Assembly: GCA_032622095.1 (NCBI GenBank)
Contig: CP136067.1
Location: 128,127,030 to 128,191,029, forward strand
Source of the DNA: Siphonodentalium dalli
Taxonomy: Eukaryota; Mollusca; Scaphopoda; Gadilida; Siphonodentaliidae
Length of the DNA: 64,000 bases
Direction of reading: 5' to 3'
This document shows positions 8,800 through 52,366 of the stretch, one piece after another. How positions within the stretch are numbered: position 1 is the stretch's first letter; every line of letters starts with the position of its first letter. The notes under the pieces were generated by a model that was not told where the DNA came from, did no database searches, and saw only the letters and a list, made by a program, of their open reading frames with translations. Both the position numbers and the translations under genes were made by a program.

Positions 8800-11772
8800 T
8801 TGAAACATAATTATTCATCGGTAAAGTTGACTGTAAAGTGCAAAATGGTCCAGAAAATGAAGTGCAAACAGATGACTTCTGAAAACAACAATTCGGTATA
8901 TTCAGTGCAACGATCTGAATGGATGGTAAACATTCGATCGAATAACAGTGATGTTCACTATAAACGTGATACAGGGGCTCAATGTAATGTTATGCCAACG
9001 TCTACATTCAAGAATATGTCTCACTCCAATCTCCATCCATGCATAGTGAAACTAACTGCATATAATGGAGGTGAAATGCCTGTTGGTAAAGCACTCATCC
9101 GACAAGATGACGACAATTCTAAAGTTCCAGTGTTTGTTGTTGCCGAGACTGACTCTCACCTTTGATTGGACTGGAAACATGTGAGAAGTTAGATGATGAT
9201 CAAAATCGACAATAACATCCCAGATTTTGTTCAATGACTATGATGAAGTTTTTGGTGAAATAGGTTGTTTGGACAAAATTCATCGAATTGAACTGAAACA
9301 AGATGTTATACCAGTAATTCAGGCTGCCAGGAGAATTCCACAATCTATACGAACCTCTCAAAGAAGCGATGAACAGGGTGGAAACAATTGACATCGACAA
9401 AGTGACTGAACCAAGTGACTGGGTGATCTACAGGAAACATTCGTGTTTTCCTCGACACAGAGAACTTGAATAAAGCTATCAAGCGTCATTATTACCAACT
9501 GCCGATCACTGAAGAAATCGTTGCAAAGATGTCAGGTGCGAAGATATTCAGTAAAATTGACGCATCTTCTGGATACTGCATTTTGCAAGTTGATGAGGAA
9601 TCGTCAAAATTATTATAACATTCAATTCAACATTTGGCAGATGGCGTTTCAAGCGAATTCCATTTGGAATCCTATCGGCGAGCGAATTATTCAAACGGGA
9701 CATTGCATAAATAATCCAGGGACTACCTGGCACAGCAAATTCGCAAGATGATATTATATGGACAGATAATCAACAATTACATGACGCACGACTTAAAGCT
9801 GCTCTTGGCATGGTGCGATCTTCTGGACTGAAGTTAAATAAATCAAAATGTGTCTTCAGTGGAAATGAAGTTACATATCTGGGACATATTATTTCTTCAA
9901 AAGGACTGAAAGCTGATCCTAGTGAAATAACAGCAATCTTGGAAAGCCTGCTCCTGAAAACAAAAAGGACCTCCAAAGATTATTGGGTGTGGTGAACTAT
10001 CTCGGAAAATTTCTTCCGAATCTTATCATTGACATATCCTCTTAAACCTTGAATAAGAGGTAGAATGGAACTTTCAAGCTGAACAACTTTATGATGTAAA
10101 CCGTGTAAAAGTTGATGTTACAACTACACCAATTCTTCAATAGTTTGATACAACTTTACAAGTAAACGTGTTATGTGATAGTTCAAGCACAGGCCTTGGC
10201 GCTCAATTGGAACAAAAACGTGACGACAAATGGATGCCAGTTGCATATGGAAGTTCGTTAATTAAACGCAAATAGAGAAAGAAACACTCAGCATCTTGTT
10301 CGCGTGTGAACAATTTCATGACTAGAATATGGTCCTAAATTCGTTGTTGAAAACGATCATAAAGTATCTTCACCAAGAATTCAACGATTCTTACTGCGTC
10401 TCCAGAGATATGATTTCGGGATGAGTTATGTGAAAGGGTTTCCCCTACATGTTTCTGATGCATTAAGTAGAGCTTCACTACCAGAGTGCGATTCAGAAAT
10501 TTCCAGATAATGATGTGTCGTATCATATTCATTCTGTTCTTGAAATGCTACCGATGAGTTTTGGAAGGTTAGAAGAATTCCGTGATGAATCTCTCAAAGA
10601 TCCAGTTGTATGTGCTTTAAAGAATGCCTTAAACTAGGGCTACCCAATGTTCTCCCTGAAGAATTGAAAGTGTTCAGCCATGTGTGGGATGAGCTGACGT
10701 GTGTTGGTGGCCTTGGGGTGAAAGGGTCGCAAATTGTTGTTCCGAAACCGATGCAGTCAGATATGAAAAAACGTATACAGGAAGGTCATTTAGGCATTGA
10801 GCAGTGCAAAGCTCGTGCGCGAGAATGTTTATATTGTCCTGGCATGTGTGGTGAAATTTCTGAGTTGGTTTCAAAGTGTCAAACTTGTATTCTCTATCGG
10901 AACAATCATTCTTCATAACCATGTATAAATCATGAATTTGCAAACATTCCTTGGTCAAAAGTAGGGTCTGATTTGTTTATTTTCAGAAATAAGTGGTAGT
11001 TTCTTGTTGTTGACTATTCCAATTATCCGGAAATAATGCAGTTAGACAATATTTATAGTGCCAATGTAATTTCTCATACGAAAACAATGTTCGCATGTTG
11101 GGGCAAGCCTGAAATATTAATCAGTGATAATGGTACCCAGTATACCAGTGCTCTCTTCAAAACATTTGTCAATGAATGGGAATTCAAACATGTGATTTCT
11201 AGCCCATTGCATTCACCTAGCAATGGACTTGCAGAAAGGACAATACAAACTGTGAAGAAACTCTTGAACAAAGCGCTTGATTCCAACTCTGATCCACCAT
11301 TAGCGCTGCTGAACTTTCGAGCAACTCCAGGAAGTGATGGACTATCCCCTGCGAAAAAACTATTGAATCACAACATTCGCACTAGACTGCCTACCTACCA
11401 GGAAATTCCATCAGTCGGTCGAAAGAAGAACATACAAATTTCATAAAAAGACAATATCAGATTTGCCAAATGATCACAGCGTGATAATTAAATACACTGA
11501 TAGCACACATTGGGACAGACGTGGTAAAGTGATAAAAAAGGACATTAACCCTCGTTCCTATCACATACTCAGCGAGGATGGCAATACTGTACGTCGCAAT
11601 CGAAACTAATGAACAATTCAAGAGTGAACCAGATTCATATATATTTGATGCTGTACCAGTGCGTGATACAAACTCTGCCGACAACTTGAATAATGCTGAA
11701 AGTGTGTCAATGCCTGTCAATCATCCACCCGATTCATTTACAACGAGATCTGGAAGAACAGTTAGAAAATAA
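8800..11772 (+). pseudogene. Pol pseudogene of the gypsy element (PR-RT-RNaseH-IN)
   Basis: Protease: the DTGAQ active-site word is intact at 8968-8982. Reverse transcriptase: pieces from about 9200 include SKIDASSGY (9550) and a catalytic Asp pair in SQDDII at 9741-9758, where the family normally has a Y-x-D-D box; codons before it appear lost. The thumb-side word NKSKCVFSGNEVTYLGHII follows at about 9840. RNase H: from about 10,150, ending LRLQRYDF and DALSRA. Integrase: zinc-binding HLGIEQC...CQTC at 10,780-10,890, then the DDE triad as Asp 11,012, Asp 11,125 and Glu 11,233. A C-terminal tail ends TRSGRTVRK. About ten frame breaks separate these pieces, so no working enzyme is encoded. Confidence 0.9.
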
Positions 11773-20995: not shown

Positions 20996-23700
20996 CTATA
21001 AAAATACTGTCTTCAAATTGCCGAGGTCTTAATCAGTCAGAGAAACGCCGCGACGCATTCCGATATTTACGATAACAAAGTGCCTCAATATACTGTCTAC
21101 AAGACACGCATTTCACAAAAGAAATGGAAAGATACATATCTACATAATGGGGATTCAAAACAATATTGGCACCCTTCTCATCGCAATCGCGTGGTGTGGC
21201 AATTCTATTTAACCAGAACCTCGACTTTCAAATACACAATTCTATCAAAGATGAAAGACTTTAGTTAATATATATGCCAAAATGAAGATAACCCTGATTT
21301 TTACATACAGCTGAAAACTAAGATTATGGACATGGGTAACACCCAAATAATAATATGTGGTGATTGGAATATGGTACAAAATCAGTCCGCTGATACTTTA
21401 AATTATAAACATGTTAACAATCCCCGGGCTAAATATGCGGTGGGCGACCTTTTCGACAGACTCGAACTGGTGGATGCTTGGAAAATTAACAACAAAGACA
21501 GAAAACGATATACATGGAGAAACAAATCTCCAATAAAAATGGCTAGACTAGATTACTTTATGATATATGAAGATCTTCTAAGTCTAGTTGGGGCAGGGAC
21601 AGATATATTACCGGGATACCGCTCTGATCACTCCATAATATCACTCACATTAAAATTAAATACAATTGTGAGAGGTCGAGGTTATTGGAAATTTAACACC
21701 TTACTTCGTGAAAATGAATATGCAGTATTGGTGCATTCTATAATAGAAAGAAATAAACTAAGATACGAATATAACTGAATATATGTGAAGAAAATACAAG
21801 TCATGTTACCTGTAAAATTAGTAAACGTTTATTTTTAGACACCCTTTTATTGGATATAAGAGGTGAAACTATAAATGTCCCAGCAAAACGAAAAAGAGAA
21901 CGCAAAAAGAAAGAGGACGAATTAAACAAATCTTAAGTAATATTGGAAACAAAAGTTGAAAACAACGCCCAAGGTTTAACAGAAAGAGATGAATTATTGG
22001 AAAAATTAAATAAAATAGACTCTGAGCTCTAAGAAATTAGAAAAGAAGATACGAGGGGGGGGGGCAATGATAAGATCTAGAGCCAGGTGATTGAAAACGG
22101 TGAAAAACCCACAAAATATTTCTTGAATCTCGAAAATGACATTTCTAAAACTCCATCGATTCTCACGGACTCCACTGGTAAAAACATTGATAATCAGTCC
22201 GACATAATGAACGAAGTAAGAACATTTTACAGTACTTTATATGCATCTACAAAAACAACCGACTATTAGCTGGACATTATGCTTTATCATTTTCTATGGA
22301 ATTCAAAGCGCGATCGAGTGAAACGCAGAGTTGTATGCCAAGATTACAAAAACGGTGGCTTGAAAATGGTTGATGCCAATAATGTTATGCTGTCAATGAA
22401 AATAACTTGGGTGAGACGCCTCATAACAAAGAGCGCCAAATGAATGCCCCTCACAGATAGTCCATTATGTAAGGACCCCATGGTCCTTAAATATGAACAT
22501 GGCTATATTTAGAGAAACAGGCAAATAAATTAACTAGTCCATTCTGGCATGACGTTTTGTTATCATATGTAAAATTATGTACGCTGTGGAATAATCCAAT
22601 ATTAAACAATATGGAAAGGTAATATACTTCACTTCTTGGCGCGAAAAGGGGATTATGTATATAAACGATATGCTAGACAGTAAAGGTTCTTTTCTTTCAC
22701 AATGAGCCATACATATGACATTTAATATACGGACAGACTTCATCACTCTAAACACTATACAGCATCAGATAAAATTAAGTGCAAAAAAGCTTGGCCGCCA
22801 ACAGATAACTCGAGTTTCCTACCCCATTCTACCCACTAACTTCAGCACTTTGCTTAACAATTCGCGGGGAGGACAAGATTTTTACAAAGCTTTGAACGAT
22901 ACTCAAATTACGAATAAAGCGCGCACAAAATGGCAATCACAGATTCCTGATATGGGAAGTGCAGTATTTACATATGATAAACTACCCTTTCTCACGACGC
23001 CTGACACCAAGTTACAATGGTTACAATTCCGAATGAATTCTAGAATATTATCAACTTATAACTTTCTACACATATCTAATATAAGACAAGATGATAAATG
23101 TGATAGGTGTAAAAGTGAAAAGGAAGATATCAACCACAGTTTTGTGGGATTGTAGTCATGCATATGTGCAGACATTTATTAGATATATCTGTAATTGGGG
23201 GGGAAATATTGATATAAATCTCTATCCCACAAATATGACAATGATTATTGGCCCATCACCCATTAGTAACAACTATACTACAAACTTGCTATAGCTCCTA
23301 ATTAAACAATATATATATCGGTCTAAATTTAAACAATCGTTTTGTCTGTTAATGTGTTCCTCAAAGAGTTGGCATATAGATACAATTGCGAGAAATATAC
23401 AGCACGATGTCAATCGAAATTTCCAGAATTCTTGAAAAAACTGGTTCCTTATAGAAATAGTTTGAAATGCTCCTAATTAAACAATATATATATCGGTCTA
23501 AATTTAAACATTCGTTTTGTCTGTTAATGTGTTCCTCAAAGAGTTGGCATATAGATACAATTGCGAGAAATATACAGCACGATGTCAATCGAAATTTCCA
23601 GAATTCTTGAAAAAACTGGTTCCTTATAGAAATAGTTTGAAACAAACAGGCGACTTAATCAGAAATCGACAAAGTTACCTGAATTGTTTAGATCGCTAAG
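20996..23700 (+). pseudogene. L1/Tx1-type LINE, internally deleted
   Basis: The N-terminal apurinic endonuclease starts ILSSNCRGLNQSEKRRDAF (20,999), with CLQDTHF in place of the usual LQETH. Later come ICGDWN (21,350), RYTWRN, RLDYF and the catalytic SDHS (about 21,625). The linker contains GEKPTKYFLNLE (22,101), typical of Tx1-like L1 elements. The frame then jumps near 22,270 straight to a late segment (FLWNSKRDRVKRRV, CQDYKNGGLKM), so the reverse-transcriptase core, including the catalytic Asp pair, is missing. The C-terminal part (KLQWLQFRMNSRIL, then CDRCKSEKEDINHSF with its zinc-knuckle cysteines) is present to about 23,700. Several stops and shifts occur. The encoded protein would nick DNA and copy the element RNA; this copy cannot. 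Confidence 0.88.
23294..23643. repeat. Recent 175-bp tandem duplication inside the LINE 3' region
   Basis: 23,294-23,468 is repeated at 23,469-23,643 with about one internal change (AACAATCG against AACATTCG). Both copies encode the LINE C-terminal word KQYIYRSKFKQ, so the duplication arose after insertion or in the source copy. Confidence 0.95.
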
Positions 23701-36917: not shown

Positions 36918-37016
36918 ATAGCATTAAAGTCGTCGTCGCGAAGTTCATATTTTACCCATTTCCCCGCTTATTAGACCAACAGAGTCGTTCTGAGAACGAA
37001 ATTAATCGTCCCAAGA

Positions 37017-37061
37017 TTAGCCGCTATCGATTCGCATTCCAGGAAACCCCCCTGGCATGCG
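37017..37061 (-). pseudogene. Last 15 codons of the reading frame split by the foldback element
   Basis: Beyond the foldback, the minus-strand frame continues in phase as RMPGGFPGMRIDSG and stops at TAA (37,019-37,017). The Val codon at the junction lies in the 8-bp target duplication, so the frame is continuous when the element is ignored. See the partner entry at 39,349-39,732. Confidence 0.5.
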
Positions 37062-37685
37062 CACAGCAGTTGTATGGGAGGCTCGTTACATCCACATCTA
37101 AAAATAGATTTTTTTGGGTCTAAAATTGTTTGTACTAAAATCTTCCCAAAAAAAGTTTTCAAAACCCAATTTTTTTTTTTAAATTTAAAAACAAAAAAAG
37201 TTTTACAAAATCTCAAAAAATTTATAACGAGTTTTCGGTCTCTTACCCAAATATCGGCCGACTATTAAATGTCGAATGTTTTTTTAAATATTTGCGTGTA
37301 ATATCTTTCGTTATTTTTGTTCAAACAAATTTTAAATATTTTTCATGAAACTCTGTTAATTTTATTAATCGATGTTTAGAAATAGCTTTATACCAATTAT
37401 ATGTGTATGGACAGGTCCGAGTCGCTGTAATTTTGGACATTGTGACCATCGGTATGAATGCATACATTCCAGTGTTTATCAATCAGACGCAGTCCATGCA
37501 TCATATAATTGTCATACCTGAAATAATTTGACACCATTACTCTTACATGAATAATAAAGAGCGTTTATTCTTTACTTCTCTATCCCGATGAAGTTATTGA
37601 GTATATGACAGGTGTGCATTATCGCGAATTATTGGAAGTATTGAGATGTTGTACTATTTTGAAAGCAGTCACGATATTTGAGCGT

Positions 37686-37893
37686 GTCCAAAAAATTTCA
37701 AAAACTTCCAAAACTTCCAAAACTTTCAAAACTTTCAAAAATTTCAAAAATTTCAAAAACTTCAAAAACTTCAAAAATTTCAAAAATTTCAAAAACTTCA
37801 AAAAAACTTCAAACATTTCAAAAATTTCAAAAACTTCAAAAACTTCAAAAATTTCAAAAATTTCAAAAATTTCAAAAAACTTAAAAAATTTCA
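37686..37893. repeat. (TTCAAAAAC/T)n simple repeat in the left arm
   Basis: About twenty 9-bp units of TTCAAAAAC or TTCAAAAAT. All six frames are affected, giving spurious Lys/Ser or Phe/Leu-rich frames on both strands. Confidence 0.95.
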
Positions 37894-38025
37894 ATATATA
37901 ATGAAGATGACGAGCAACCAATTTTCGACTGGCCTGAGACATTACGTTATGGAATGAATAACGACAGCGGATCAGAATGTGATCATACACGCAATAATAG
38001 AAGTTACTTTGATGTTGTTATGAAT

Positions 38026-38371
38026 GAACTGAGTCTTGACATTTATATTTCACATCTTTCTTAAATGTTCCATCACATACATACATAGACATAGTGTTAT
38101 ACAGTCTTATATGTACACACGCTACGACACCATTAAAGGTGGACAATACACATGGTGATCGAATTTGATAACTATTTTATTGGAACAACTAAGAGTATTA
38201 TTTACGTGAGATAAATGAGTCCAATTATTATAAATAATACATTGCAGGCATCGGTGGATACCCGATTGCCACATTTAGTGATCACGTGATAAACTGATAA
38301 AATGTCCAAGTGACGTACTATATGTATGCATAACTCAATAAACTGTTAATACGTAAGGTTGATAAAATTCT
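38026..38371. other. Loop of the foldback element
   Basis: 346 bp of AT-rich sequence with no coding frame or further inverted repeat noticed. Confidence 0.6.
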
Positions 38372-38504
38372 ATTCATAACAACATCAAAGTAACTTCTAT
38401 TATTGCGTGTATGATCACATTCTGATCCGCTGTCGTTATTCATTCCATAACGTAATGTCTCAGGCCAGTCGAAAATTGGTTGCTCGTCATCTTCATTATA
38501 TATT

Positions 38505-38736
38505 GAAATTTTTGAAGTTTTTGGAAATTTTGGAAGTTTTTGAAATTTTTGAAATTTTTGAAGTTTTTGAAGTTTTTGAAATTTTTGAAGTTTTTGAAAT
38601 TTTTGAAATTTTTGAAATTTGTTTGAAGTTTTTGAAATTTTTGAAATTTTTGAAGTTTTTGAAATTTTTTTAATTTTTTTAATTTTTGAAAGTTTTGGAA
38701 GTTTTGGAAGTTTTTGAAATTTTTTGGACACGCTCA
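38505..38736. repeat. (GTTTTTGAA)n simple repeat in the right arm
   Basis: Complement of the left-arm 9-bp repeat with a different number of units, showing that it has changed length since the arms were made. Confidence 0.95.
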
Positions 38737-39348
38737 AATATCGTGACTGCTTTCAAAATAGTACAACATCTCAATACTTCCAATAATTCGCGATAATGCA
38801 CACCTGTCATATACTCAATAACTTCATCGGGATAGAGAAGTAAAGAATAAACGCTCTTTATTAGTCATGTAAGAGTAATGGTGTCAAATTATTTCAGGTA
38901 TGACAATTATATGATGCATGGACTGCGTCTGATTGATAAACACTGGAATGTATGCATTCATACCGATGGTCACAATGTCCAAAATTACAGCGACTCGGAC
39001 CTGTCCATGCACATATAATTGGTATAAAGCTATTTCTAAACATCGATTAATAAAATTAACAGAGTTTCATGAAAAATATTTAAAATTTGTTTGAACAAAA
39101 ATAACGAAAGATATTACACGCAAATATTAAAAAAAACATTCGACATTTAATAGTCGGCCGATATTTGGGTAAGAGACCGAAAACTCGTTATAAATTTTTT
39201 GAGATTTTGTAAAACTTTTTTTGTTTTAAAATTTTGAAAAAAAAAATTGGGTTTTGAAAACTTTTTTTGGGAAGATTTTAGTACAAACAATTTTAGACCC
39301 AAAAAAATCTATTTTTAGATGTGGATGTAACGAGCCTCCCATACTACT

Positions 39349-39732
39349 CACAGCAGTAAACGCGAACTGCAGATTGGGTGTGACGTCATTAATCACCTTG
39401 CGGCATTCTGTTAACATTGTGTTATCGAAATCGGTTTCTGCGTGGTTTTGTTTTAGTTCACAAACAAGGTTTCGTTTTCGTTGGAAATCGTGAATTCGGA
39501 ATGTATTTATGTGTGTAATAAAATATTGAATAATACGACATGAATTATTCGCGTGGCCAAAAAACTCCGGAGTAAATTCGTACATATTTGGACGAAGTTC
39601 GTGTGTCACTGTGACTGTCAGAATAGGACCACAGCAGATCATGCCATGAATCTCTACTCCCGTGCCGCTGGAGTAGGTATTCGTGGCATGATCTACATGT
39701 AGGTCCACGGGAACTTCGAAATTTATTAACTT
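39349..39732 (-). pseudogene. Unrecognised reading frame split by the foldback insertion
   Basis: On the minus strand a frame opens after a stop at 39,735-39,733 and runs to the right-hand target duplication. It reads FEVPVDLHVDHATNTY, GVEIHGMICCGPILTVTVTH, FTPEFFGHANNSC and VINDVTPNLQFAFTAV, with the composition of a genuine soluble protein. Upstream, in another frame (39,930-39,735), CRYVDSIATQEALLIVQPE and LVLFLWDLKAEICESGHVSH continue the same character, so one frameshift or an intron lies near 39,730. Left of the foldback the last 15 codons remain in phase (37,061-37,017). I do not recognise the family; it may be a host exon or an unknown transposon protein. Confidence 0.5.
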
Positions 39733-39935
39733 TCAACCTATTGTTGATATGAAATGCATGGGATACGTGACCGCTTTCGCAGATTTCGGCTTTCAAGTCC
39801 CACAAGAAGAGTACTAATTACGTTTCTGGCTGAACTATCAGAAGGGCTTCTTGGGTGGCTATGCTGTCTACGTATCTGCATGTATCATCTTTGTGAAAAT
39901 GATTTTAATATGATCAAACAGTGAAATACAGATCT
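39733..39935 (-). pseudogene. Upstream part of the split unrecognised frame
   Basis: The minus-strand frame gives WDLKAEICESGHVSHAFHIN then RLKVNKF, joining the 39,349-39,732 frame after a 1-nt shift; before it, one in-frame stop (TAG near 39,812) follows QEALLIVQPE. The breaks suggest decay, or exon boundaries I cannot place. Confidence 0.35.
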
Positions 39936-40085
39936 ATACAGTATACCATGGCTTCTTCCATTCGTTGAGTTGAAAAAGTAAATACTGGAGTGTTATTACG
40001 CTGAATAATATAATATCTATGTTCAGGGTAAACACACCCGCCCCTCCCAAAATGGGCCGCATCCTCAGCATTGTATGGGGTTCAA
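39936..40085. other. Unassigned interval
   Basis: No feature seen. Confidence 0.4.
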
Positions 40086-40089
40086 GTTT

Positions 40090-42700
40090 TGTTTCTCCAA
40101 TTTTCCTCTGACTCATTCTTTTTTATTATAATATACAAAAATGTGACAACAATAACGACCATAAAAAGCGTTTGCTTTAAAAATAGTGAACCAAAATCAT
40201 TATTTCATCATTTTATGCAGATTAGTTCCATACATCACCTTCTCAGGAGAAGTCTATTTCTTGCCATTTCATGACTATAAAGCAAAATAATCAATAAAAC
40301 CCCCAAGATGATTTTTTGTCATGTAGGTCCTGGACTTCTTCCCTTCCTAGCCTGGATATCTTACCCCCACCCAAACCCTGACTCAAACAACATTTTCTCG
40401 GAAGAAGTTAATTTCTCATTGTTTCGTGACTATATAAAGCAAAATAAGCAATAAAACCATGATTTTTCTCAAGTAGGCGCTGGTGTTGGGGGGGGGGGGG
40501 CTACATCATGTTCTGGAATCTTCGTTTCATGACTTTATAAAGCAAAATAAGCAATGAAACCATGAGACAATTTTTTGTCATGTAGGTGCTGGGTTGTGGG
40601 TAGCTATCCAGACCTGGACATTTGAAAGAATGAAATTAAACAAAAACAAATTTAAATCTCAAGTCATTTTTCTCGCCATTTCAGGATCAAATAATCAATT
40701 GTGTGATTAAAAAAATATGTCGCTTGGAAAAAAATATATTTTAATAAAAAAAAAAGGGAATTATAAAAAAAAACATTTTTCTGGCAATTTCAGGATCAAA
40801 CTATGAAAAGTGGGGGGAAATTTGTCACTTGAAAATAAAAATTTTTTAAATAAAAACAAAGTTAAATATCAAACAATTTGGCCATTCCAGAGTCAAACGT
40901 TATCAAATGAATGAAATTATTTTCAGTCATATATGGGAGATGAAGATTAGGGAGATACATTGTAACAAACTATTAAGATTTCATTCATTTATTCATGCAT
41001 TTCTCCAGCTCGGGCAAACGAAAGCCCCTGTAATTTCCACCATCATTTGGGAAAGCATACTGAAATTACTGATGCCATTCACAACACACGATGGAAGAGG
41101 TCTGCAGTTATGCAAACCATGGTAGCCATAGCACCACCGAATAAACTGTCTATGCGATATGCCTGTATTTGTTGTGCAGAGGTCCATTAAACGGATGACT
41201 ATACTGTTGCTGGTATCCTAACCATGCAACTTCAAGTAGCCATGGGTCCAGGCACACACTCCTGAAGGGGACAGTCTCTGTGATACACTTGAAGTGTCCT
41301 TCTTCCTATGAAATCGCTTTTGTCACTTCCTTTAGCTTGGTCTCAACCTTTTCAATCTCATGGCAACATCTGCACTCACAGGTACATTGTAGTCTCCATC
41401 ACATACATAGGTGCATGAACACATGAAATGACAAGGGAAATACATTTATTATGGAACAACTCAGAGTTAACATTCAATTCCTCAATTTTGTTGATGCAAA
41501 CTTTGACAAATTTGTAACAAACTCGACATACAGTAATGCCCTAAATAATCGACCCCTTAACCACATCAGAATTATAGGTATAGTTTCAGGATTCAGTTTG
41601 AAATATGGCTTGTGGAAATTCAACGGAAAGCTCTCATGAAGGCAACAAGTCATATTTCGGACTAAATCCTGAAAAGTTACCCACAGTTCTGCTGTGGTTA
41701 AGGGGTTGAATGTTTAGGTCATTGCTGTATGTTCTGATGAATGACAGTGGGCATGCGTCTGTCCGTCCACTTGTTATCATGGATACATGCATCTTGGATA
41801 AGTTCCGCACAAATTTGTTATCAGAAGTTATACCTGCTGAATTGTTTACCAGGTGTCTATTTCATTATCCAGTTTTGTTAATATCCTGTTTTAAAGATTC
41901 ACAGCTTATACTATAGTAGTTTGTTTACCTGGTGTACATGATATCTCCCCCAGTGCATCCCCCCTTTTTACTATTTTCAGTCTGTCAAATGCTCACACCC
42001 ACCGAGAATTCAACATACGACAAAATATAAATGTACACGTTTTAATTTATTGCTTATTTATTTTTATGTTTATATAGTCATTAAATGGCGATAAATTAAC
42101 ATGTTACAAGTTGTTTGAGTCAGGGTTTGGGTGAAGAGGGGGAATTAGATACCCAGGTCTCAATATCCCCCACACCCAGCATCTACATAAGAGTATATGA
42201 CAAAAATAAACTAAATATTTTATTGCTAATATTGCCCTATAATGCTATATATCCATTAAAATTTTGATTGAGTCAGGATTTGGGTTGGGAGAAATTACAC
42301 AGGCCTGAATATCCCTCCCCCCCCCCAAAAAAAGAAACCAGCAGCTGCATATGAGACAAAAATATCTTATTATTTATCACTTACATTTACCGGTATATCG
42401 CTTTATATAGTCATGAAATGGCGAGAAATTAAAATTAATCGAGAAAAATTTCATTGAGTCAGGGTTTGGGGTGTGAGGGGGGAATACCGAGGCTTGAGTA
42501 TCTCTCGCCTTTTCATGAGTGTATGAAGCAAAATAAGCAACTTATAAAATAATAAATTCATTTTTGTCATAAGTAGCTGCTCGGTGGGGAGTGGGGGCGA
42601 TAAGAAACCCGGGTATCTTTCTCCTGCCCCAAATACTGACTCAAACAACTTTTTCTTGGAAAGTTAATTTCTTTCCGTTTCATGACTATATATTCAGAAA
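40090..42700. repeat. Orientation-switching tandem array around the P2X7-type exon
   Basis: Units of about 160 bp carry TTCATGACTATATAAAGCAA, AATAAGCAATAAAACCATGA, TGTCATGTAGGTGCTGG and AACCCTGACTCAAACAA. Direct units occupy about 40,230-40,620, inverted units about 42,050-42,500 and direct units again 42,505-42,695. A second set of about 110-bp units (TCTCGCCATTTCAGGATCAA) fills 40,660-40,900. The inverted and direct groups lie on both sides of the exon at 40,985-41,422. Confidence 0.85.
41549..41709. repeat. Small inverted-repeat element inside the P2X7-type intron
   Basis: CGACCCCTTAACCACATCAG (41,549) pairs with CTGCTGTGGTTAAGGGGTTG (41,688), and TTCAGGATTCAGTTTGAAAT with TCGGACTAAATCCTGAA inside. 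A 161-bp hairpin, MITE-like. Confidence 0.85.
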
Positions 42701-42980
42701 TAGCATACATTGGCATGTATAGACCAAGTTTTCTCAGTCCACAACAGCTTGGGAAATTGGTTGGGTTGATGCTGTTTTGGACCGAGAATCCGAGATGCCT
42801 CCTGTTGCTCTTCTATACCAGTACCGTAACAGATTTTCATTCAAAAGACATACTACATGTACATGTATAGTACCCCGACAGTCATGTGAACCCATGAATA
42901 TAATCATCTCACTTGGACCACAATGAATCTGTCTTCAAAATGATATACAATGTACCATATACTGTTATAGAAAATATCCA
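42701..42980. other. Intron interior, unassigned
   Basis: No further element recognised. Confidence 0.4.
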
Positions 42981-42984
42981 CACC

Positions 42985-43165
42985 AAGATATTATCTCGAC
43001 TCTCTAGAGATTTCGAGAAAAGAATCTTGAGATATTAACATATTTTCTCGAGATCATACGGCAAGATCTCAAGAAAATATCCAGAGATCTCAAGATAATA
43101 TCGCGAGATACTAGTAATATGTTCAGAGCTTGAGATGCGCATGTCAGGATCTCAAGATGTGTCGA
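42985..43165. repeat. Cluster of TCTCGAGA/ATCTCAAGAT words
   Basis: Within 180 bp at least ten variants of ATCTCGAGAT or ATCTCAAGA(T/A) occur, many followed by AATAT. The whole is an imperfect inverted repeat (AAGATATTATCTCGA near 42,984 against AGATAATATCGCGAGAT near 43,095). Confidence 0.8.
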
Positions 43166-43817
43166 GATAACAATTAACATGTTGAATATTCAACTTTCAA
43201 GACACTTTTTTTTTCTTGGACAATGTCACAAATCAAGAGTTAGCTAATTTTTGGCAAATTATTATTTTAGCCAGTGCAAACACTGTCTCTGATTGTCATA
43301 GTACTGATACTATAAATAGCTGAATCCAATGTCAATCCGTGAGCAGCCATGGACTGGCAGTGGTCGAGTCCAGAATTTCAATACATCAAAAAATTGACAT
43401 TTTTAGTAAAAAAAAATACTACTGGTATATTTTAGACTAACATTTCGGCAGACACACAACTTTTCCTTGAATTATATTTCATATTTCGATGTATTGAGTA
43501 TGCGTAATGATTATTACACATGTCCGCTCGTATAAACGGGGTTTTAGCTAGTATTTACATCAATTTTATTTTCACATGTTTTGCCAGTGACCGCGATATT
43601 TTTAATAAGAGACGCTCAGTGACTCACCATTTTCGTACGCGATTTTCATCTCTTCGCCATCCAAGGTCTGGATCGTTTGGTGGTCTCACACTATGGTAAT
43701 TTTGTGGTAATTCCGGCTCGTGCATGTACGCTCCCGTTGTCAAATTTAAAGTGTCTTCTGACGAATCAGACGAGGAACAATCAGATCGCAAAAAATGTTT
43801 CTGTCAGTGTCAGCCAT

Positions 43818-44420
43818 TGTGGGAAATACCAAAGGTCCTTAAGTACGTCACACGCTTTCTCGCAAATAACTGTTTCCGTCAAAATAGATAATGAGGTGAT
43901 GCATCAGGCTATCACCCAGACACACACAGTCGTAAACACTCGTATCTTTCAGACAGCGGGGGATTGTTTTCTTAAATAAGTGTGCATAACTTGATACAAA
44001 TATGAATAAATGAACATATATTGAGAATTTTCGCGACGTCGACTTTAAAACCGCGGAACCGAGGCTGGAGCATCTCTGAAACCACGGAGCTGGGTGAATC
44101 CAATACGGCCATGACCCAGTGATCTTGCTTATGGGAAATATTCTGATAGTAAGTTCAACTAAGGAATAACATATTATCTAAACATTTCCCTCAATAAATA
44201 GGCCTCCTTTTGTATCTGCTTAGTTTTCCTGAAACACTCTCCACACGAATAATAGACCGTCCCATTGTATACCGGTATAACTGAATGGAAGAATCCATTT
44301 AGAATAGAAAGGATTAAATGAATTTCTTAAGTGAAGCTGAATATCCAAGCTGGTCGGGGTTGACGTTTATATTAGATGCATACAGGGAGGATGCGCATAT
44401 AGTGTAGCTGCGTGAATAAG
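43818..44420. other. 5' flank of the P2X7-type gene, unassigned
   Basis: Would hold the promoter if the minus-strand gene was once active; no TATA box is evident. A 100-codon plus-strand frame (43,677-43,979) overlaps exon 1 and is taken to be its shadow. Confidence 0.35.
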
Positions 44421-48439: not shown

Positions 48440-49995
48440 CTTATCAACATTCCCTCAACAATTTCTTCAAGTTTTATTATTCCGCCGAAGGAAGAATAGC
48501 CGGACTATATTGAAACCTTTGTTAATTAATTTAATATTAACATTTCTCATAATCATTGCAAGTTTATCTGCGTCATTCAAATTATTGAATTCACTATCGT
48601 GTTTTTCAATTTCGCTGAATAAATTAGATCTTAAATCATCGTATGCGTTACATTCAATGATAAAATGAATTTCAGATTCGACACATTGTTTGTCACACAT
48701 GGAACACAGCCGATTTTCTAATGGTATTATACTGGTTGCCTATGCCTCTTTTTTCTACTGTCAATGTGTGGTTGCTCCCGCGCAATCTAGAAAACATTTC
48801 GCGAACAATTTGTGATCGTGTGTGAATTAATTATGGCTAAATTTTGTATTCATCTTTAAATATCCTATAGGTTCGTAGTTTATTTTTCCCTGTCGGTCTA
48901 TCGTCATTGAATATATCATTGCGAAATACTTCCATGTGTTCTGATTTCAATGTCTTAGTCACCATCTGTTCACGCTCCCCTGATAGTTGGCCTGCTCTAT
49001 TTATTACAATGTTATAACGCGACAATTGGGTGAGCCATGTTAAAGGCAATTTACAATTCAGAGATTCTTTGTAGCATGCGGATAAGATATTATGGTCATC
49101 TACTTTTGATAGTTTTAGCATGTACCTGAAGAGTTGTAAAATGTCATCATTCGCGATAGAGAAACGGCATAACTCTGCTCTAGAAGCGTGATTTGATGCC
49201 TTTCTATTCAAACATAGAGCCCGTTTACAAAACTTTAGATGTGTTTGTTCACATGGTATGGTATCGTTGAACGGCAAATTAATGTCAGTGGACCATATCT
49301 CACATCCATACAATAAAATAGACTTAATTAGTTTATCAAATAATTTGTCTTTAATGGCGATAGGCAACACCGGTATTGTTTTTGTTAAATTTGTTAAAAA
49401 GAACATGTCTTTTGATGCATTTTCGCTCAGGTTATCCTGTACTTTTTTCATTTTTCCATTAGATGTGAAAATTAGTCCGAAATATTTATATTCACCCACT
49501 ACTTCTATTGGCATATCATCAATATTAAACACATGACCATGTTTTGTTTTTCTTGAACGAAAGATCATACATTTTGTTTTGCTTACATTAACAGACAGTC
49601 CGTTGTCAAGCGCATATTGCTCTAACTTCTTAATCCCCGATTGTAAACCTGTTGGTGATTCAGAAAACATCACCAGATCGTCTGTGAAAGTAAATGATTG
49701 AGGTTATGATCATGAACGTGTACGGGGTCACATGTTTCGTCAAAAATATTAGCTATATCATCAATTAAAATCTTGAACAACGTCGGGGATAGAGAATAAC
49801 CTTGACGGACACCTATTGTAGACAATATCAGGGGGACCAATTCCCGCCGTTGTTTAACAGAATAGTAGCCTGATTTGCAAAGAGAAGATAACGCGTCATA
49901 TATATGACCATTAATTCCTACACGTTGCAATTTTTCGAATATTAGATTGACCAATGAGAATGGAGTTCTACTGACAGGAGATGGTGGCATATTAG
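48440..49995 (-). pseudogene. LINE, 3' half (reverse transcriptase to zinc knuckle)
   Basis: Read on the minus strand from about 49,990: SLVNLIFEKLQRVGINGHIY, VKQRRELVPLILS, GVRQGYSLSPTLFKILIDDI; after a frameshift near 49,690 the catalytic box reads FTDDLVMFS (about 49,690-49,664), with Thr in place of the usual Ala. Then GLSVNVSKTKCMIFRS, SILLYGCEIWS, LKFCKRALCLNRKASNHASR and KLRTYRIFKDEYK, and near the end RLCSMCDKQCVESEIHFIIE with the zinc-knuckle Cys and His. The element is cut at its 5' end in the RT palm region. Two or three frame breaks and a stop near 48,838. CR1/jockey-superfamily style; the clade is not assigned. Confidence 0.88.
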
Positions 49996-50221: not shown

Positions 50222-52366
50222 ATTTTATTCCAATCAAAATAATAACACATTTAAACATTGGACAAACATTTTACAGTAAGATAGAATAATATAAGTAATC
50301 GATTGATTGGAAAGGGGATTAAACAACAAGCCCAAGGGCTTTTATTAAGTTTGCTCCCCTTTTGTTTCGCGCCCGCTCTTCATTAAGTGTAGAGGGGGTC
50401 GGACGGGAAAGAGATGGGACGAGAAAGAGATAGAGAGGATGAGAGAGAGGGAGAGATATATAAAGGGGATGAGATGATGGGAGAGGGGGTAGTGGTGAGG
50501 AGTTTTCAATAATTGAGTTGAGTTGTTGCGTAATAATAATAATAATAATGATGCTCGTCGGTAGTATTCTTCGTGCGTCAGGCGCCATGGGAAGGGATTA
50601 AGCTCAGCTATTAATTGGTTGCATTGGTCACTATGTAATTAAACATATGTAGTGTGGAATATCATGCTGCCGCAAAACTCGACCAGAATCCAAAGCAATT
50701 CGTTATCCGTACAGGTGATAGAATCATGGGAATCTTTTTGTTCTCATGCTATATGTCTGAACTGCATTAAATATTTGTTTGTTTTCGCGAAGGCTAAGCT
50801 CCCTATATCCCCGCAATAGAGTGTTCTCAGATAAGGCAACATTGGGTAGGGAGTCATACAGTTCTCTGCTGGGCTCTTGATAAAATGTACATTCAAAGAG
50901 ATAGTGGTAAGTTGTCTCAAGTTCCCCACATAAACAGAAGGGGAATTTTTTACATGATTATCGGTCAGGTCACAACTCAGGTGGCTACATTTCAGTCTTA
51001 ACCGGGTATGAAGGATATGAGATTAACGGCATTTACTATGATAAAAATGGGCAGGTGGACGCATATTGTCACTGTTTCCTTTTTAAATTCTTCGATTGTA
51101 CTGCTGCCCTTTGTAGATTCCGGCAGTTTGTTCCATTCAGTAATTGCCGCTGGTAAGAACGAATCCATATAATAGCCATAGTTAATATCCGAGAGTAGTC
51201 TTATATGTTCAAATCTGAAGTTATATCTGGAATTATTTGCCTGGATTGGTCGTACATAGTTTCTTAAGATTGATGGGGCAGTTCCACGTATCATTTTACA
51301 AAATTGGCATAGCTTGTGTTTTCTACGACGTGAGGAGAGGAGTTCCCAGCCAGAAAACCTGTTACTATTCGGGCCATTTCATACTGAACCTTTTCAATGT
51401 CATCACTAAGATAATCAGGGTAGTTATCCCAAACAGGGGAGGCATATTTCAGTATTGGTCGGATAAATCTATAATTTATTTTTTCAAGCGTTACTCTGTT
51501 TAGCCTGTATCTGTGTTTACGTACTATATTTACTCGACTCCATGCTTTGTCAAGCATAGATCTGATGTCGATACCCCATGAGCCCATGTTGTCGAAAGTA
51601 AGTCCCAAATGCTTATGGCTGTCAACCTCAACAATTGTCGCAGTTCCCATGGTCAGGTGTGGATGATATACTGGTGTTTCTTTCCTGGAGATTAAGAGAG
51701 CTTCCGTTTCCAGGGGATTAAATGTTACAAGCCATTCTGATACCCAACACATGAGAGTTTCGAGGTAATCGTTGACTAGTTTTGCGGCCAGAGTGGGGTC
51801 TTCGATAGTAAGGAAAGACGAATGTTGCACCGTATATTTTCGGTTATATCATTAATATAAATTAAAAACAGAAGTGGGCCTAATACTAAAACTTGTGGGA
51901 CACCGGCTGTTACATCGTGTAAATCCGAGTGTGTGCCGTCTATGACAACTTGTTGTTGCCGGCATTCCAGATACGATTTCATTAAGTTATACAAGTTTCC
52001 TCTTATACCAATTTTCGTCAGTTTGTTCAAGGGGCCACGGGGCCAGACTTTATCGAATGCTTTACTTATGTCGCAGAATATACACCGGACCTCTTTTCCG
52101 CCGCCCAGTGATCGACATATATTGTCATATATTTCGGTAAGTTGGAAAACTGTTTAGTCATTGCGCATAAAACCAGCTTGATAAATGATAGGAGTTTGTT
52201 TTCATCGAGAAATTCCCATAGATATTTATAAATGAATTTTTCATAGACCTTTGAGATGCAGCTTAGTAGGGAAATTGGTCGATAGTTTGATATAAGACTG
52301 GGATCACCGCTCTTGAATATAGGTGTAACATGGGAACGCTTCCACTGGGTGGGTAGTAGCTGTTTT
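50222..52366 (-). pseudogene. CR1/L2-like LINE, 5'-truncated, with (ATT)n-bearing 3' region
   Basis: Minus-strand order: WKRSHVTPIFKSGDP (52,345), SNYRPISLLSCISKVYEKFI, AGFMRN, FCDISKAFDKVW, LTKIGIRGNLYNLMKSYL, AGVPQVLVLGPLLFLIYIND, then ENIRCNIRL joined directly to SFLTIEDP, so the F-A-D-D catalytic box is deleted at about 51,830. Next WVSEWLVTFNPLETEALLIS, HKHLGLTFD, FRFEHIRLLSDIN, SFLPAAITEWNKLP, then C-terminal FCLCGELETTYHYLFECTFY (about 50,945-50,880). After the stop the 3' region holds an ATT run at 50,530-50,550 and ends TTGGAATAAAATATG near 50,224. Several shifts. Elements of this kind insert by target-primed reverse transcription; this copy cannot. Confidence 0.9.
50395..50470. repeat. 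Purine-rich (GA)n-like tract in the LINE 3' region
   Basis: GGGAAAGAGATGGGACGAGA followed by AAGAGATAGAGAGGATGAGA; low complexity. Confidence 0.8.

Follow-up and report, generated by a model that had tools for sequence, protein, structure and literature searches.

Duplications of the target site TTAA are produced by piggyBac as well as by Kolobok elements, the latter being told from the former by the combination of TTAA with 5'-RR/YY-3' termini (PMC9587614). Within Kolobok, the Kol0 lineage was reported to encode an accessory protein, KolX, which was identified as a homologue of the ballast domain of P2X7 (Kojima and Bao 2022, PMC9587614). The authors of that work concluded that P2X7 acquired its ballast domain from a Kolobok element (PMC9587614), and the stand-alone ballast proteins of invertebrates were assigned to Kolobok elements (Kojima and Bao 2022, PMC9587614).

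The locus described here lies in a stretch of 64,000 nucleotides from Siphonodentalium dalli (the window, to which all positions refer) and is identified, with high confidence, as the inactivated KolX gene of a non-autonomous Kolobok element, a DNA transposon of the Kol0 (KolX-bearing) lineage. With Kol0 (Kolobok-1_XT type) the window element shares the TTAA duplication, 5'-RR...YY-3' termini and a KolX with a ballast domain, and its relatives share the transposase that bears a DxxH signature and a zinc finger; unlike Kol0, the window family lacks autonomy, and its KolX, dead in the copies examined, is divided between two exons. A homologous zinc-coordinating Cys domain (PF20478; PDB 9e3m, 6u9v) is found in P2X7 and in stand-alone invertebrate or Nanor-like ballast proteins (Rump et al. 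2020, PMC7016195), from which the window domain differs in being transposon-encoded, broken in the window copy and not joined to a P2X channel. The TTAA target and a partial KolX similarity are held in common with piggyBac elements carrying a KolX-like C-terminal piece (PMC9587614), with which, however, neither the terminal bases nor the linked transposase fit.

Ends, size and copy number of the element

The element occupies positions 36,928-44,044 on the minus strand, and at least 40 aligned copies end sharply at 36,924 and 44,048, at the outer edges of TTAA target-site duplications on the low-coordinate (36,924-36,927) and high-coordinate (44,045-44,048) sides. Read inwards from TTAA, both ends carry AGTCG-N-CGTCGCGAA, whereby the inverted repeats comprise 15 bp, namely AGTCGTCGTCGCGAA on the plus strand at 36,928-36,942 (the 5'-RR end) and AGTCGACGTCGCGAA, as read on the minus strand, at 44,030-44,044. 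The termini adjoining TTAA, AG...CT, are hence of the 5'-RR / YY-3' kind. When TTAA and the terminal pattern were counted together, 338 exact sites were found in the genome and 0 in the reversed control, many of the terminal-pattern sites being inverted pairs about 4.8 kb apart. The 4-bp TTAA duplication flanks both ends in the window copy and likewise in L080, a copy with about 97% identity. In its present state the window element measures 7,117 bp, which is reduced to about 4,830 bp when a nested insertion and its 8-bp duplication are subtracted, and this latter size agrees with the genome-wide terminal spacing.

DNA searches with exon 2 and exon 1 of the KolX gene as queries yielded 229 and 247 candidates, respectively, the best 40 of each being 96-100% identical and distributed over many chromosomes. 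Near-identical copies of the window element were found on all nine chromosomes, and the family occupies well over 100 places in the genome.

The nested insertion (37,070-39,348; 2,279 bp) is flanked by an 8-bp duplication, CACAGCAG, at 37,062-37,069 and 39,349-39,356, and is composed of 750-nt inverted arms that are 95% complementary, together with two 9-bp tandem arrays; possibly it is a fold-back or MuDR-like element. The corresponding site is empty in two other copies (L037 and L056), and the insertion postdates the surrounding Kolobok element. Mobile DNA is plentiful across the window: retroelement remnants were located at 11,000-11,443 (+), 21,269-21,775 (+), 48,840-49,703 (-) and 51,779-52,153 (-), with matches to integrase core, reverse transcriptase and endonuclease, the endonuclease match being below the cut-off.

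The KolX gene and its domain

The relic of the KolX gene comprises two minus-strand exons. Exon 1 (43,628-43,817), covered by an alignment of 18 sequences, starts with an ATG at 43,817-43,815, which is followed by a frame shift in a T-run, an open frame of 59 aa and the donor GTGAGT at 43,627-43,622. Exon 2 (40,993-41,422) bears the P2RX7_C/ballast domain. Between 40,229 and 42,692 the element contains short sub-repeats, about 50-110 nt long (around CATGACTATATAAAGCAAAATAAGC) and of either orientation, most of which lie in the intron that separates the exons (41,423-43,627) or downstream of exon 2. Exon 1 is tied to exon 2 because many copies have both of them on one strand, and the relatives keep the same exon order as the window copy.

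A single piece of exon 2 scored 12.5 bits against PF20478 (P2RX7_C), for which the cut-off is 23.5 bits, while the pieces arranged in order, with X at the breaks, reached 34.6 bits (E 2.3e-8). Uninterrupted relatives gave 61.5 bits (L076) and 52.7 bits with their exon 2, and one relative with an uninterrupted exon 2 matches the P2X7 ballast domain in PDB 9e3m, residues 477-594 (E 3e-7), a similarity which settles how the relatives' domain is folded; the broken window pieces alone returned no match among solved structures. The Cys clusters typical of the ballast domain (WCxCxxC, CC and CIT, LPSC) are represented in L076 by RCSCGLC, CRCC, KCIT and LPSC, and in the window copy the first Cys cluster is disrupted by an extra 7 nt and substitutions. 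The exon-2 pieces of the window are thus homologues of the C-terminal ("ballast") domain of P2X7, PF20478. No Pfam match to a P2X channel was found in the pieces and open reading frames scanned. The original prediction, which had read the minus-strand pieces as a P2X7-type C-terminal domain to be sought with PF20478, encoded by a decayed two-exon gene and devoid of a P2X channel part, is borne out on each of these points.

Exon 1 by itself gave no Pfam match to P2RX7_C. It was found in at least 150 copies, which are 81-98% identical and nearly all stop-free, and divergent copies differ from one another by in-frame changes of 3 nt and 6 nt. These in-frame indels, together with frames that stay free of stops down to 81% identity, suggest that exon 1 was coding in the ancestors. 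A weak Pfam match of exon 1 to Metallopep (E 0.016, under the cut-off) was taken as chance. In L020, exon 1 also gave a weak tblastn hit (E 0.03), which lies between the KolX exons of that family and was set aside.

Lesions and their history

Exon 2 of the window copy is interrupted by a TAG at 41,308-41,306, a loss of 2 nt near 41,154 and additions of 7 nt near 41,385 and of 8 nt near 41,060, and the AG of its acceptor reads AT at 41,424-41,423. The stop, the 2-nt loss and the altered acceptor had been recorded correctly in the original prediction, which missed the two frame breaks caused by additional nucleotides. The TAG and the three frame breaks (the 2-nt loss and the additions of 7 nt and 8 nt) are common to 30 of the 30 close copies aligned, these being the best-scoring ones, with more divergent copies under-sampled; likewise, all aligned copies in which exon 1 is preserved, L076 included, have the same T-run there. 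Assembly error, which had been put forward as a possible cause of the lesions, is therefore ruled out, as the exon-2 stop and frame breaks recur in 30 separate copies and the T-run in all aligned exon-1 copies. Being common to the copies, the exon-2 lesions and the exon-1 T-run must have been present already in the copy that multiplied. As clear private changes of the window copy in the exon-2 region only those at 41,348 and 41,423 were identified, the latter being the lost acceptor.

The order in which the gene decayed can be followed in the relatives. In the divergent copy L080, exon 2 bears the stop, the 2-nt loss and the 8-nt addition but lacks the 7-nt one, and neither L076 nor L077 has any of the exon-2 lesions. 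The succession of open (L076 and L077), partly broken (L080) and fully broken close copies thus indicates that the gene broke stepwise along the multiplying lineage. The average divergence of the copies from their majority sequence is 0.53%, that of the window copy 0.55% (25 of 4,559 columns), and from this low divergence it follows that the last burst was recent. Of the 25 substitutions private to the window copy, no more than 7 are transitions, which is an unusually low share.

Uninterrupted relatives and the linked transposase

The uninterrupted relatives L076 and L077 are about 88-92% identical to the window element at the DNA level. L076 starts with TTAA-AGTCGACGTCG, the same terminus as that of the window element, and possesses an open KolX exon 2 of 146 aa. 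On its opposite strand, pieces with TDMH, DCWH, a zinc-finger-like Cys/His stretch and RLENFNG follow each other, an order which fits the published Kolobok order of second D, C/DxxH, zinc finger and last E. As the L076 transposase piece matched no Pfam model, it was identified via a 531-aa transposase frame of another KolX family, in which GDGRCDSPG, STDRH, DPWH, a zinc-finger-like stretch and RLEVYH are found; two L076 pieces align with this frame (E 1.8e-7 and 8e-5), and the piece with the catalytic D was recognised by eye, without a significant alignment. The 10 kb read at L076 did not reveal the opposite end of its element, and no complete autonomous element with these exact ends was seen end to end. 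The window element gave no tblastn match to the 531-aa transposase and hence is regarded as a non-autonomous Kolobok element retaining a KolX relic.

Other KolX families were identified in the same genome, and some of these adjoin TTAA-AGGGG ends; the AGTCG ends of the window family contrast with AGGGG in two other KolX families. In another such family (L023, L025 and L078, the latter at C7:27290650-27297649), the ends read TTAA-AGGGGAACGAAACCC and KolX is a complete frame of 188 aa contained in a single exon, hence KolX exists in both intron-bearing and intronless form in this genome. In at least 8 places, KolX and THAP-domain exons face each other at a distance of 3-31 kb (e.g., C1:11938559 and C1:11943018; C2:162810716 and C2:162813909; C4:58098784 and C4:58092457), and these facing hits suggest that in several KolX families a THAP domain stands at the start of the transposase.

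Presumed transposition in trans and alternative explanations

Judging from the anatomy of the elements, a transposase provided by related full elements would recognise and bind the common ends, would excise copies of the window family and would insert them at TTAA, i.e., by cut and paste in trans. KolX, if needed at all, would also be supplied in trans, and, not being needed in cis, the gene could have decayed while the family spread. There is a slight chance that a short exon-1 product or a truncated KolX still helps or regulates transposition in trans, an idea which derives from exon 1 being stop-free in most of its copies, of which there are 150 or more with identities as low as 81%.

KolX hits located within 12 kb of a match to a transposase piece form 14 pairs genome-wide, all 14 of which are convergent, with 0.03 pairs expected by chance. 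Several different KolX families share this arrangement of KolX facing the transposase, and so does the full-size relative with the same end sequence as the window element, from which it follows that KolX belongs to the lineage. It is this layout which makes a Pack-type origin very improbable, i.e., that a non-autonomous transposon captured a fragment of a host ballast-domain gene instead of being a deletion derivative that always encoded KolX, even though the window family is without transposase and ballast genes occur in animals (PMC7016195).

The TTAA duplication might equally be expected of a piggyBac element, and KolX-like C-terminal pieces are known from a few piggyBac families (PMC9587614). 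Yet the window termini start with purines (AG) and not with pyrimidines, the relatives have Cys clusters that are mostly absent from those piggyBac proteins, and the linked transposase bears the DxxH signature and the zinc finger of Kolobok, so that an assignment to piggyBac is most improbable.

Originally the stretch had been taken for a decayed host gene that encoded a stand-alone ballast-domain protein and had no tie to mobile DNA. Such a gene would account for the two exons, the plausible start and donor and the P2RX7_C homology without a P2X channel, but this extremely improbable reading is refuted by the presence, on each of the nine chromosomes, of nearly identical copies that share sharp ends and TTAA, and by lesions common to separate copies. 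The high-copy mobile element had gone unnoticed; the comparison drawn with stand-alone invertebrate proteins was a fitting one, but such proteins themselves belong to Kolobok elements (PMC9587614).

Meaning for KolX and the P2X7 tail

The element in the window, read as a Kolobok element with a dead KolX gene, adds a new non-autonomous representative to an established type of transposon, the link of which to P2X7 has been published already. A genome rich in KolX elements backs the published claim that the tail domain of P2X7 is a Kolobok transposon protein, and it serves as a warning that genes annotated as "P2X7-like" in invertebrates in many cases belong to transposons. Finally, the series of open, partly broken and fully broken KolX genes within one genome could be used to test whether transposition requires KolX and, if so, whether in cis or in trans.
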